Shown here piece by piece: positions 4,649 to 11,546 of a stretch of DNA of 64,000 nucleotides (position 1 is its first letter; the number at the start of each line of letters is the position of its first letter). A program made the translations under genes and the position numbers. The DNA lies in the NCBI GenBank assembly GCA_012840135.1, contig DUMA01000014.1:1-64000 (forward strand), written 5' to 3'. The notes below the pieces were generated by a model, which worked only from the letters and a program-made list of their open reading frames with translations, was not told where the DNA came from and did not search any database. The DNA comes from Thermoanaerobacterales bacterium. Lineage in GTDB: Bacteria; Bacillota; Thermosediminibacteria; Thermosediminibacterales; Tepidanaerobacteraceae.

Positions 4649-5007
4649 GTTTGCACCTCCGAAAATCTTTTTTAACGCGATAATGCTATGTATAATTACA
4701 ATCAATATAAAAGTCCTTAAAAATTATTAATTAATAGATTTAATAAGTATAATTTCTAGATTCTTTATAATAGTTAATTTTTAATTTTATGATACAACAA
4801 ACAATTTATTTCCTTTTTTTAAATATCTATGTTTAATTTTTAGTTTGTAGATATTTTTTCTATAAAAAAGTGAATTTACCTTCAAGATAAATATGTTTAT
4901 ATTAGCATTTTTTTGCTTTTTTGAATTTTCTGCTTTATCATATTACTAATTTACTATAGTAAAGTAGCATTGACATATAAAGAAATTTAACTTATATTAT
5001 AATTTAT
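4649..5007. other. AT-rich intergenic region upstream of hutH
   Basis: About 360 bases of very AT-rich DNA between the hutH start and the left end of the insertion sequence. It must hold the hutH promoter, but several TATTAT- and TATAAT-like hexamers occur and none pairs with a convincing -35. No open frame with a ribosome site and no hairpin terminator was seen. The last 9 bases (4999-5007, ATAATTTAT) are one copy of the IS target duplication. Confidence 0.5.
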
Positions 5008-7009
5008 GATTCTGGTGTAAAAACCCCATTCTCCTCCCATCCATATTTATCCAAATGCAACTTGAAAAATAAAAACTGACGAAAAACAACTAAAACTACC
5101 ATATTATCATGATTTATGGTATAATATGCAGGGACAAGGGCTAAAATGGAACATATAAGCCACAAATCATGATAAATGAGGTGCAAGAAATGTTCAGAGA
5201 AAATGTTAACCATCTTCAAGAATCAATATTTGAAAGTACCAACTGGATGAACCCCAGGATAAAGACTAAATTGGACAAATCTTGGGCCCCCATATTCTAT
5301 AAATACGTATTCTGCAACATAGATGAAAAGCCATTTTCAGTACTTTACAGCGATACCGGAAGACCCAACTTCCCAGTAAACATAGCCTTATCCCTGGAAT
5401 ACATAAAGCATTTAAAAAACTACTCCGATGATGAGCTAATCGACAACTTCTACTTCAACTACCTGGTAAACTATGCAGTAGGAATCAGAGTACTGGGAGA
5501 ACTAAACCTGGCAGAAAAAACCCTTTATGATTTCAGAGCAAGAATATATCGCTATCTGGTGCAACACCCTGAACAGGAAGATTTAATCTTTGCTTCATTT
5601 TTAAACCTCACCAAAAACTTTATCAAACAAGCCGGTATATCCACCGAAGAACAGCGCATGGACTCCACCATGTTTATGTCAAACATCAAGAAAGCCGGGA
5701 GAATAGCATTGGCATTTGATGTTCTGGAAAGAGCAGTAAAATCAGTGCCTGAAAACCTTCTTACACCAAACCTCAAAGAAGTCCTAAAACCCGAATTCAA
5801 AACAGATGTAATCTATGAAGCAAAACCATCGGAAAATGAAAGCAAACTCGACATGCTCCTGAATCTGTGCCTTGAAATCAAGAACATCATAGAAAAAACA
5901 GATGAAATAAAAGATCCCGATATCCTGAGGATACTTGAAAGATTCATATCAGAACAATCCGTATTTGATGAACAAAAAAACAAACTCAAAGCCAAAGACA
6001 ATAAAGATATTCCTACCAACTCCCTGCAGTCTGCCTATGACGAAGATGCCACATACAGGAAAAAGGGTGACAAAGCCCAAAGCGGATATACACTAAACAT
6101 TGCATAAACCTGCTCCAAAGAAAACCCAGTCCAGCTTATTACAGACTACAAGATAGCTCAAAACATCAAAAGCGATGTAGATCTGGGTAAAGATAGAATA
6201 CCAGTTATCAAGGAAAATACCGACTGCAAACACCTTTATATGGATGGAGGATACTACTCCCCCGACATAATAGAAAAAGGCAAAGAAAACGAAATTGAAC
6301 TTCACTTCACCAACCTCAATGGCAAAAAACCTCAAAAACACTTATCGGTAACTCGGTTTGAAATAGATGAATCCACAGGTATAATAACAAAATGCCCTGA
6401 AGGTATAGCACCCACACATGCAGGTATAACCAAAAGCCAGATTGTAGCTCATTTTCCTTTGAATGTATGTGATACATGTAAACACAGAAAAGATTGCTAC
6501 TGCAAAAGGCAGAAAAAAGACTATGTGGTCCGTATAAATCTAAAAGCCATAGAATCGGCAAAACAACGTCAGATAGTAGAACAAGATCAAAAAGAAAATA
6601 CCAGCATGAGGGCAGCCATTGAAGGAACCAACTCAGCATTAAAGCGTGGGTATGAGCTTGATAAACTTAAAGTAAGGGGTATTGTAAAATGCAGCATTGT
6701 TGTGGGGTTTAAGGTATTAGCTCATAACTTCAAGAAGTTTGCAAACTACATTATACAAAAATCCAAAGAACTTATACCTCAAGACAAAGGGGAAAGTCTG
6801 CCTATTTTAGCCCAGTAAATAGTGAAAGACTCCGAATTTAAGATAACAAAAGAGAAATAACCCCAGAAAAAATGAAAAAATATCAAAGTTTAGGTGCAGA
6901 TATACCGAAAAATTGATACCAAAGTCTAAATCATTTTCCAGGATGTTCCTTATGAAATTTTCAAGGATCGGAAAAAGGGGTAAAAAAGCAGGGTTTCTAC
7001 ACTAGAACC
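5008..7009 (+). mobile_element. IS1182-family insertion sequence with target duplication
   Basis: A 2002-bp element. The left end 5008-5027 (GATTCTGGTGTAAAAACCCC) and the right end 6990-7009 are imperfect inverted repeats, matching at 16 of 20 positions. Directly outside both ends lies the same 9-bp word ATAATTTAT (4999-5007 and 7010-7018), as expected for a target-site duplication. Inside is one transposase gene with DUF772 and DDE features of the IS1182 family. The ends are intact, but the transposase has an internal stop codon, so the copy is probably immobile unless helped in trans. Confidence 0.85.
5190..6818 (+). pseudogene. IS1182-family transposase interrupted by an in-frame TAA
   Basis: DDE transposase of the IS1182 group. 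The first part (5190-6107) has the DUF772 region SVLYSDTGRPNFPVNIALS and the first catalytic Asp in MDSTMF. The rest has the second Asp in MDGGYYSPD, a Cys-rich segment (CDTCKHRKDCYCKR) and the Glu region in IEGTNSALKRGYELDK. Both halves are in the same frame. The stop at 6105-6107 falls in a stretch reading NIA-stop-TCSKENPVQLITDY, where relatives have Glu, so one GAA-to-TAA change explains it. The start at 5190 follows GAGGTG; the frame opens 7 codons earlier. The break lies between the first and second catalytic residues, so neither half should be active. Confidence 0.85.
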
Positions 7010-9183: not shown

Positions 9184-9333
9184 AAAATCTCCTCTTCGCT
9201 GCTGGAATTAACTGCATTAAAACTTCAACCTTAGCTTAGAAAAATATGAAGACGTTGTAAAAAATTATAGCGCAGAATAGCAACAAGAGCAAGTCTGTAA
9301 AATAATATAGTGAGTGAGGGGAGTGATTTAATT

Positions 9334-9570
9334 ATGACCTATCGGCAGGAATTCGGCAGCAGAATATTGCGCCGGGGCATGCGGGGAGACGATGTAAGGG
9401 AACTCCAAAGCAAGCTACAGAGCCTGGGCTATAATGTAGGACCTATAGATGGCATATTCGGTCCTCTTACCGAAAAGGCTGTAAAACAGTTTCAAAAAGA
9501 TAATGGATTAAAGGTGGACGGTATAGTGGGCCCTCAGACCTATGACATGTTGGAAAGGCTTATTCCATAA
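9334..9570 (+). CDS. small peptidoglycan-binding domain protein
   Basis: A 78-residue protein that is almost entirely one PG_binding_1 domain: RGMRGDDVRELQSKLQSLGY then GPIDGIFGPLTEKAVKQFQ and VDGIVGPQTYDMLERL. There is no signal peptide or catalytic domain, so it is a stand-alone wall-binding module, of a kind often associated with spore cortex or spore coat proteins. The ATG at 9334 is preferred because GGAGTG precedes it; an in-frame GTG at 9310 is possible. It is followed directly by a terminator, so it is a single-gene unit. Confidence 0.85.
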   Translation: MTYRQEFGSRILRRGMRGDDVRELQSKLQSLGYNVGPIDGIFGPLTEKAVKQFQKDNGLKVDGIVGPQTYDMLERLIP

Positions 9571-9597
9571 AAAAATCCGCTGCAAAAGCGGTTTTTT
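9571..9597 (+). terminator. rho-independent terminator after the PG-binding gene
   Basis: CCGC-TGCAAAA-GCGG stem-loop extended by A/T pairs and followed by TTTTTT, starting at the stop codon. Confidence 0.85.
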
Positions 9598-9664
9598 CAA
9601 TTATAGATATGATTTTTCTCCCGATATAAGGAATTTTCATAATATGTCGAATTATATTTATATA

Positions 9665-9725
9665 GACCCCACCTTCCTATTGAGTTTTTTTACTCAGCCT
9701 GTGTAGGATGGTGAGGTCTTTTTTT
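9665..9725 (+). terminator. two-tier hairpin with T-run
   Basis: Nested stem: GACC/GGTC, CACC/GGTG and TCCTA/TAGGA, with an inner TGAG/CTCA hairpin, followed by TTTTTTTT at 9718-9725. It is oriented as a second plus-strand terminator. The stem can form on either strand and also faces the end of the minus-strand gene at 9778. Confidence 0.65.
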
Positions 9726-9777
9726 ACTTACTTGGCAATTTTCCTGCATTTTGACATAATAAAATTTTACGCCGCCC

Positions 9778-9966
9778 TTATGGGTCCATAGACCCGCCCA
9801 TCAATAATTCCCTTATCATGCGCATTTCTTCCCTTTCACGGGCTATAGCATTTCTCAGCATCCGCCTCATGCTCTCGTTGGGTGCCGTTGCCATCAGATT
9901 TTCCCAGAGAGCCAGTTCCTGTTCATCCAGCCTCAGAATCCTGTTGAGCCCTTCTCTCCAGTCCAT
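9778..9966 (-). CDS. small hypothetical protein, MDW family A
   Basis: A 62-residue, highly charged and probably helical protein of unknown function. It begins MDWREGLNRILRLDEQEL and contains LMATAPNESMRRML and a run of Arg, Glu and Met. The start at 9966 is chosen over the ATG two codons upstream because AAGGAGGG then sits at normal spacing. It lies 34 bp downstream of another small gene whose protein also starts MDW and also has a TAP motif at the same depth, so the two look like diverged tandem paralogues of one operon. Closeness to sspI suggests, weakly, a spore-related role. Confidence 0.6.
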   Translation of the reverse strand: MDWREGLNRILRLDEQELALWENLMATAPNESMRRMLRNAIAREREEMRMIRELLMGGSMDP

Positions 9967-10000
9967 TTTCATCCCTCCTTTGCTTTACCTAAAATGTATT

Positions 10001-10267
10001 TTATTTTTGCCCTTCCTTATTCTCATCGGCCGTAAACGGAGTTCCGTACGGAGGTTGATTATATTCGTAATCATAGTGTGACTCCGTATATCCGGGTCTC
10101 ATCATAAGCATCATATGCCAATGCATGGCTTCCATCAATTCTTCCATCATAATCATCAGTACGCTGTGTGCTACCGGCCCCGGAGCTGTCCTGGCCACTT
10201 CGGTCAAGATCCTGATCTCCTCAAGATCTATTTCATAGGCCTTGTAAACGCCATGATACCAGTCCAT
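10001..10267 (-). CDS. small hypothetical protein, MDW family B, Met/His-rich
   Basis: An 88-residue protein of unknown function with a strong GAAGGAGGG ribosome site. It begins MDWYHGVYKAYEIDLEEI, has TEVARTAPGPVAHS, then a methionine-rich helix (MEELMEAMHWHMMLMM) and a polar tail. The helix contains Glu-Ala-Met-His, an ExxH spacing seen in ferritin-like helices, but with one such motif this is only a hint. The first half aligns by eye with the downstream 62-residue protein around TAP. The two genes form a likely bicistronic unit. Confidence 0.6.
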   Translation of the reverse strand: MDWYHGVYKAYEIDLEEIRILTEVARTAPGPVAHSVLMIMMEELMEAMHWHMMLMMRPGYTESHYDYEYNQPPYGTPFTADENKEGQK

Positions 10268-10341
10268 CCCTTTATTCCCTCCTTCTCTCTGGTCTAATAC
10301 AATATATGAGTATGTTGCCGAAAATGTTATGTTTAAGACAA

Positions 10342-10439
10342 AGCCCGCATGTATTTGCTACGGACACGCTCGCACGCCGTTTGCAGCAGCAGAGCTGACG
10401 GCATCTGAGAAACTAGTCCGGCCATAATACACGCGGGCT
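10342..10439. ncRNA. nested inverted-repeat element, candidate structured RNA
   Basis: A GC-rich 98-base segment in an otherwise AT-rich gap with a coaxial series of complementary arms: AGCCCGC (10342-10348) with GCGGGCT (10433-10439), GTAT with ATAC (10351/10427), CGGAC with GTCCG (10361/10416), GCCGT with ACGGC (10376/10398), and CAGC with GCTG innermost. No T-run follows on either strand, so it is not a simple terminator. The gap 10268-10485 holds nothing else. I do not match it to a known riboswitch or ncRNA class, and the strand is undecided. Confidence 0.45.
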
Positions 10440-10485
10440 AAGTGTGTTTGTCAAGAGTTTTTGTGACATTTTTTATAAGTATTGT

Positions 10486-10710
10486 TTAAGATACAGGCTG
10501 ATTGTTTATGGTCTCCATGATCTTGTCCATCATGCTGTTTCTTTCTTTTTCATTGGATTTTTGCCATACGGTCTCAAAGAGAATCCCCATGCCTGGAAGG
10601 GCCTCTTCTTCCCGGGTCTCAATGGTTTCGTTTATATAGCCCTCCACTTCATCCCTGCTGCTGCCAGCCAGGTTCTTCAGCACCAGACTTCGGATGTCAA
10701 TGGCCGTCAT
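10486..10710 (-). CDS. sspI: small acid-soluble spore protein SspI-like
   Basis: Spore-core protein of the SspI family, made in the forespore. It has 74 residues from the start at 10710. The body DIRSLVLKNLAGSSRDEVEG, then EEEALPGMGILFETVWQKS and the end NSMMDKIMETI, follows the Bacillus SspI pattern (ALPG-G-LFE-W). The start MTAIDIRS is preferred for agreement with the family and a GGCAGGG sequence upstream; the frame extends 13 codons further. It is a useful marker that this organism sporulates. No sigma-G promoter was verified. Confidence 0.85.
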   Translation of the reverse strand: MTAIDIRSLVLKNLAGSSRDEVEGYINETIETREEEALPGMGILFETVWQKSNEKERNSMMDKIMETINNQPVS

Positions 10711-10805
10711 CGTATCCCTGCCTTTCACATATTTTTCTCTATATATCATTCCCTTCTATCCCTGTTTTAAATCCTTAAAAATTTTTTATCTTTCATCTCC
10801 GAAAT

Positions 10806-11546
10806 TTAAAATCCGACCTCCGACTTCCGGTCTCCGGCTTCAGCTTTTTGCCCCAGATATGATTCCTGAATGGTGGGATCTTCTATGAGATCCGCGGCTT
10901 TTCCGGCCTTGACTATCTTCCCCTGTTCCAGCACATAGGCCCTGTCGGCGGTGGAAAGGGCTTTATAGGCATTTTGCTCTACCAGAAGTATGGTTTTGCC
11001 GATTTTTTTAATATCCTGTATTACGGCAAAGATGGTATCCACCAGGATGGGCGCAAGGCCCAGGGAAGGCTCATCCAGCAGCATGAGCTCAGGATCGCTC
11101 ATGAGGCCCCTGCCCATGGCCAGCATCTGCTGTTCGCCTCCGGAAAGGGTTCCAGCCAGCTGTTTTTGCCTTTCCGCAAGTCTTGGAAAAAGTTCGTAAA
11201 CTTTTTCCAGATCTTTTTTGATGCCTTTTTTATCTTTTCGCAGATAAGCCCCCAACAGGAGATTATCCTTCACCGTAAGGTTAGCAAAAACAAGCCTCCC
11301 TTCCGGAACCTGGCAGATGCCCTTCATCACAATATGATGGGGCACCGGTCGCAGGAGGCTGCCTTTAAAAATAATCCTGCCTTCCCTGCTCCTTACAAGC
11401 CCCGATATGGTATTGAGCAGCGTGGATTTTCCGGCTCCGTTGGCTCCTATAATGGTCACTATCTCGCCTTTTTCCACCGAAATATCAATTCCCTTGAGGG
11501 CGTGAATGCCTCCGTAATACACATGAAGGTTTTCCACCTTAAGCAC
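10806..11546 (-). CDS. livF: branched-chain amino acid ABC transporter ATP-binding protein LivF
   Basis: Cytoplasmic ATPase, one of the two that power a LivKHMGF-type importer. It has 246 residues with Walker A GANGAGKS at about 34-41, signature LSGGEQQM, and Walker B LMLLDEPSLGL. The GTG start at 11546 is chosen because AGGGGG precedes it and its GTGCTTAA overlaps the stop of livG by 8 bp, the usual arrangement for these genes. It is the last gene of the operon. The C-terminus ends with EAGDRKSEVGF. Confidence 0.93.
   Translation of the reverse strand: MLKVENLHVYYGGIHALKGIDISVEKGEIVTIIGANGAGKSTLLNTISGLVRSREGRIIFKGSLLRPVPHHIVMKGICQVPEGRLVFANLTVKDNLLLGAYLRKDKKGIKKDLEKVYELFPRLAERQKQLAGTLSGGEQQMLAMGRGLMSDPELMLLDEPSLGLAPILVDTIFAVIQDIKKIGKTILLVEQNAYKALSTADRAYVLEQGKIVKAGKAADLIEDPTIQESYLGQKAEAGDRKSEVGF

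Follow-up and report, generated by a model that had tools for sequence, protein, structure and literature searches.

The 98-nt element at positions 10342–10439 forms a strong secondary structure in the window, i.e., the whole 64,000-nt stretch of contig DUMA01000014.1 (Thermoanaerobacterales bacterium) that was analysed here. Its minimum free energy is −43.6 kcal/mol on the plus strand (z −4.22) and −51.4 kcal/mol on the minus strand (z −4.81). The five nested complementary segments described in the original prediction are present, and a chance fold is ruled against, as none of 200 dinucleotide shuffles folded as well on either strand. The element had also been described as free of ORFs, lacking a T-run and adjacent to sspI, and these points hold: no ORF of ≥40 aa overlaps 10342–10439, no T-run directly follows the hairpin, a terminator search of 10342–10439 returned no terminator-like site, and SspI is encoded at 10486–10749 on the minus strand (Pfam SSPI, 6.4e-26). 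On its other side, the element adjoins the MDW genes (88 and 64 aa), for which Pfam gave no match. Both neighbours of the element lie on the minus strand. The features of the locus, named according to our preferred interpretation, are the following.

10342..10439, plus strand: folded core of the probable MITE copy, comprising the inner stem and the conserved hairpin and folding on both strands, with 20 further copies in the genome
10351..10427, plus strand: inner hairpin module ('cap'), common to genomes across the phylum (model R1, 47.3 bits, E 3.9e-13)
10342..10355, plus strand: left inner-stem arm, in a 14-nt inverted repeat with 93% complementarity
10426..10439, plus strand: right inner-stem arm, the other half of this 14-nt inverted repeat
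10337..10341, plus strand: GACAA, probably what remains of the outer terminal inverted repeat on the left (intact copies: CAGCTTGTAGACAA)
10447..10454, plus strand: TTTGTCAA, probably what remains of the outer terminal inverted repeat on the right (intact copies: TTTGTCAACGGTCTG)
10486..10749, minus strand: sspI (Pfam SSPI); in G001, a relative of the same genus, a terminator-like hairpin lies downstream of it at the place of the window element

Positions 10342–10439 cover only the folded core. The parent element reaches ~14 nt further to the left and ~22 nt further to the right, and only GACAA and TTTGTCAA remain of these outer parts in the window copy, which lacks full outer ends as well as a target duplication. 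The window copy matches the full-element model R2 at 10340–10441 (60.8 bits, E 3.8e-13).

The element is a dispersed repeat of its own genome. BLAST of the 98 bases against this genome (3.18 Mb, 56 contigs) returned 21 places at E ≤ 2.6e-4, query included, the covariance model also found 21 copies, and an additional right-end remnant is located on contig C14. In the flanked alignment of the copies, CAGCTTGTAGACAA precedes the core and AAGTGAGTTTGTCAACGGTCTG comes after it, so the repeat is longer than 10342–10439; its length is ~142 bp, with a long hairpin inside the outer inverted repeats CAGCTTGTAGACAA / TTGTCAACGGTCTG. These properties correspond to MITE traits: the repeat is short, dispersed and multicopy, is non-coding judging from the window copy, and carries terminal inverted repeats, the outer CAG..GACAA ends being present in most copies and partial in the window copy. 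Among the options offered in the original prediction, the palindromic mobile unit is the one borne out by the 21 dispersed copies and their IS-like outer ends, and the search of the genome and relatives that it proposed also revealed further copies in other genomes of the phylum. The other own-genome copies adjoin other genes. A crude ORF count classified the copy settings as 7 convergent, 12 tandem and 3 divergent, the 'divergent' label of the window copy being an artefact of an antisense ORF. A second dispersed repeat of the family is present at ~9660–9772 of the window, consisting of the terminator-like hairpin GACC(C/T)CACC..GGTGAGGTC, a T-run after it and then a conserved tail, with matches in G001, G003, G004, G006 and G009.

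The MITE has its ends in common with an autonomous transposon of G001. We searched the NF033551 profile (IS1182-family transposase; cut-off 270 bits) in four genomes, and G001 contains full-length genes of this family (466.9 bits) and eight copies of an IS1182-family IS of 1610–1612 bp. The left end of this IS, CAGCTTGTAGACAAA, is identical to the MITE left end over 15 nt, and the right end, TTTGTCGACAGTCTG, agrees with TTTGTCAACGGTCTG of the MITE at 13 of 15 nt; the common sequence is limited to the terminal ~15 bp. Exact duplications of 18–25 bp, each a palindrome with a 7–11 bp stem, flank seven of the eight IS copies, in line with the palindromic target of some IS1182-family members. The eighth copy has two different flanking hairpins, as would be expected from recombination between copies. 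The IS has a terminator-like hairpin of its own directly after the left end, where the MITE has its stem, and the MITE may therefore be derived from an IS by internal deletion. Two IS copies of G001 (L097 and L098; 2062154–2065394) follow each other in tandem at a single duplicated terminator. The search of the own genome for a partner IS yielded no intact copy and just two short end-like matches to the G001 IS, one of which shares its terminator with the adjoining C35 MITE. The IS1182-like gene of the window (5319–6746) was considered as the MITE partner and rejected because its ends differ. This plus-strand gene, with one in-frame TAA, lies in a degenerate IS1182-like insertion sequence at ~5005–7000, the ends of which, assigned by eye, are TTCTGGTGTAAAAACCC / GGGTTTCTACACTAGAA, unlike the MITE ends.

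Well-preserved MITE copies are flanked on both sides by the same intrinsic-terminator hairpin. The direct repeat in the flanks, i.e., the target site duplication, exceeded all of 100 shuffles at 6 of 22 own-genome places (C18a, C48, C52, C51, C35 and C29), with the repeat at C52, AAAGGCCGGTTCCCCGGCCTTT, being identical at 22/22 positions; at the other 16 places, the window copy among them, the repeat was not above shuffles. The 32-nt segments that flank 20 of the 22 copies folded at ≤ −10 kcal/mol in 55% of cases, compared to 11% of 1861 control pairs (p 7e-6). We further surveyed duplications at 39 loci of other genomes, leaving out L208, which is cut by a contig end, and the G318 copies. Hairpin duplications were present at 17 of 20 sampled copies in G135 and at 3 of 7 in G106, and terminator-hairpin duplications were absent from the sampled cap copies of G100 (0/6) and G168 (0/6), one G168 locus having a direct repeat without a strong hairpin. 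In 3 of the 20 G135 copies (L178, L182 and L185), the stem and core have the opposite orientation with respect to the MITE outer ends.

Genomes without the element at the corresponding site reveal the state of the target. G001 has the same gene order at the window locus and no element; its sequence matches the window up to 10342 and resumes from 10472, with CTCCGGTTTTAAGGCCGGAG in between, the terminator-like hairpin downstream of sspI that is gone from the window. The C52 site has a single terminator in G001 and G004 and two around the MITE in the own genome. At the C48 site, flanks ~142 bases apart in the query both align to one and the same 26-bp segment of G001; G004 carries an unrelated insert there and provides no empty-site information. 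A deletion through ACAAA at the window locus is suggested because TTTAAAACAAA of G001 corresponds to TTTAAGACAAAG of the window.

The window element is very probably a decayed, non-autonomous MITE of an IS1182-type system that enters terminators, duplicates their hairpins and carries a structural cap. An IS1182-family DDE transposase acting in trans would bind the outer ends, and cutting at the foot of the terminator palindrome would lead to duplication of the whole hairpin. As a terminator would remain on either side for the adjoining genes, terminators would be a low-cost target. Judging from the hairpin present in G001, the window copy may have entered the terminator downstream of sspI. Both terminator copies and the outermost ends would later have been lost, probably via the short ACAAA homology on the left, and an immobile hairpin would have been left behind.

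The element also occurs in other genomes of the phylum. It was detected in 4 of 61 genomes and, in a wider scan in which two candidates per genome were scored, in 10 of 398 (own genome counted in both); G009, from the same family as the window genome, is one of the carriers. The scan with model R1, in which 11 candidates per genome were scored, also found the inner hairpin in 10 of 398 genomes of the phylum, and the other 388 had none at E ≤ 1e-5. In ten genomes picked for having hits, the R1 copy numbers at E ≤ 0.01 were 145 in G318 (at least 145 inner-hairpin copies), 54 in G135, 52 in G106, 46 in G390, 40 in G168, 38 in G100, 21 in G000, 11 in G140, 5 in G059 and 1 in G001. Several genomes match in the inner part only and differ in the outer sequences; the inner hairpin thus occurs inside different outer stems and ends. 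The sampled G318 copies have longer flanks in common. In G390, a tandem array (L217, 424–976) consists of 6.1 copies of a 90-nt unit with 98% matches, each unit comprising the same apical hairpin, a second GC hairpin and a T-run. Phages and plasmids gave no match to the element, three pattern scans of viral contigs gave 0 hits, and the pattern scan of named genomes returned one MAG only, with three loci. A T-box leader was met at L017 (1038–1222, minus strand; RF00230, 118.4 bits).

Compensatory changes among homologues, a check proposed in the original prediction, were not above shuffles among close copies and were strong among divergent relatives. In 29 close copies, two-sided change did not exceed shuffles (10 pairs vs. 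7.5; 72/500 shuffles), and RNAalifold on the gapped close-copy alignment gave 7 pairs only. Among 13 divergent core rows (alignment A3), 8 of 25 pairs changed on both sides. Alignment A4 contains 30 divergent rows with the full stem, representing 77 copies found by similarity or by model R1. In this alignment, 84.9% of cells pair compared to 74.0 in shuffles, two-sided change affects 131 cells compared to 50.2 in shuffles (0/500 as high; best slid control 53), and the covariation score is 0.276 compared to 0.108 for the best slid control. The outer stem changes on both sides at 14 of 16 pairs, and this covariation was not made by row choice because R1 holds just 3 of the 16 outer-stem pairs.

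Selection at the RNA level is expected to leave more G-U than A-C. The core has 23 G-T and 6 A-C cells overall, mostly from one helix; without helix 4, there are 4 G-T and 5 A-C among 539 cells, and the outer stem has 13 and 17, respectively. A strand bias was rejected, as the excess came mostly from helix 4 and neither strand is favoured without it. Since G-U is not in excess outside helix 4, a DNA hairpin or arm-to-arm palindrome correction fits at least as well as RNA. The mean column identity is 0.81 in the unpaired core compared to 0.68 in the outer stem, with four unpaired core columns conserved in 30/30 rows, and the kept unpaired columns point to sequence recognition. The inner hairpin most likely acts at the DNA level as a structural module, i.e., an extruded or single-stranded hairpin, carried by the MITE and by differently ended repeats. 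We propose only tentatively that this ~80-nt hairpin is a functional structured module in its own right, present in several differently ended mobile repeats of six phylum families and amplified to at least 145 copies in one genome, the reason being that it favours mobility or shields the host locus. The compensatory changes of the cap could instead have arisen without selection, through arm correction by template switching (quasi-palindrome repair), in which both members of a pair change in one event. This process is compatible with the MITE reading and agrees with the missing G-U excess and with the outer stem being most variable, yet two-sided at 14/16 pairs; however, it leaves the conserved unpaired core columns unexplained, and we consider it a possible but somewhat doubtful source of the changes.

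Other explanations of the window element are less likely. An RNA acting in cis (as a leader or in the 3'UTR) or a small RNA for sspI or the MDW genes, selected at this locus, would account for the significant fold on both strands and for the compensatory changes across the wide family. However, G001 has the same genes in the same order without the element, the 20 other genome copies lie beside other genes, and G-U does not exceed A-C outside one helix. Rfam gave 0 matches in the window at the gathering threshold, none at the site (9200–11200) at E ≤ 1 and none for the inner-hairpin repeat module; by covariance-model match, the window element belongs to no Rfam RNA family or riboswitch. The riboswitch-like leader of the MDW genes suggested in the original prediction finds no support, given the same gene order without an element in G001, the settings of the other copies and the Rfam result, and a local riboswitch or ncRNA was rejected on these grounds together with the lack of close-copy covariation, leaving a locus-selected RNA extremely unlikely. 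The terminator-like hairpin of G001 at the place of the window element could also indicate a bidirectional transcription terminator kept to terminate sspI, but the window hairpin has no T-run directly after it and received no terminator call, which makes this role very improbable. The strong hairpin conservation, the G390 tandem array with the same apical hairpin and the sampled G100 and G168 copies without terminator duplications are consistent with a REP/BIME-like element moved by a Y1 transposase (IS200/IS605 or RAYT-type) via hairpin recognition, without target duplication. Such an origin is unlikely given the IS1182-type ends and palindromic duplications in the own genome, G001, G009, G059, G106 and G135.

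The MITE of the IS1182-type system can be compared with several known repeats. RUP has a mobiliser other than the one proposed for the window MITE. BOX, RUP and SPRITE of pneumococcus are also small interspersed folded repeats, some of them terminator-like, with sequences that differ from the window MITE in the cited parts of the sources (PMC3049150; SPRITE: PMC10969869). REP/BIME and RAYT systems, as presented in the cited part of PMC2817692, are alike in forming high-copy intergenic palindromes, sometimes in tandem, whereas the repeats of the window lineage have ends of the IS1182 type and duplicate their target. The prokaryotic MITEs in the sections of the review considered here (PMC10969869) are likewise short, multicopy and folding, with terminal inverted repeats and no ORF; in contrast, the window MITE family has a terminator target, whole-hairpin duplication and a hairpin common to differently ended repeats, and the review does not contain the term IS1182.

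Targeting of terminators and stem-loops by the IS1182 family is already known from the cited parts of two studies (PMC4923244, PMC5678879). The staphylococcal elements IS1272 and TnSha1 described there belong to the same transposase family as the G001 IS and target stem-loops, often gene terminators, with no sequence consensus. TnSha1/IS1272 insertions into hairpins, several of which are RNA-seq-confirmed terminators, involve deletion without duplication in the portion of PMC4923244 used here. For IS1272, an inverted-repeat-replacing model has been proposed, with hairpin duplication drawn as an alternative branch in a figure legend (Wan et al., Fig 13 legend, PMC5678879), and IS1182-related transposases are said in the relevant part of PMC12056078 to work with or without target duplication. 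While IS1272, as described in these excerpts, deletes or replaces the hairpin without duplication, the whole palindrome is duplicated in 7 of 8 copies of the G001 IS. Five core sequence strings had no occurrence in the literature searched. The new parts are the whole-hairpin duplication by an IS with its MITE and the shared inner hairpin. The copies clearly document how, in nature, an IS1182-family element and its MITE inserted into terminators with duplication of the entire hairpin; in the cited parts of the IS1272 literature, this outcome figures only as a branch of a model. They also suggest a way in which such elements could spread at little cost to the host.
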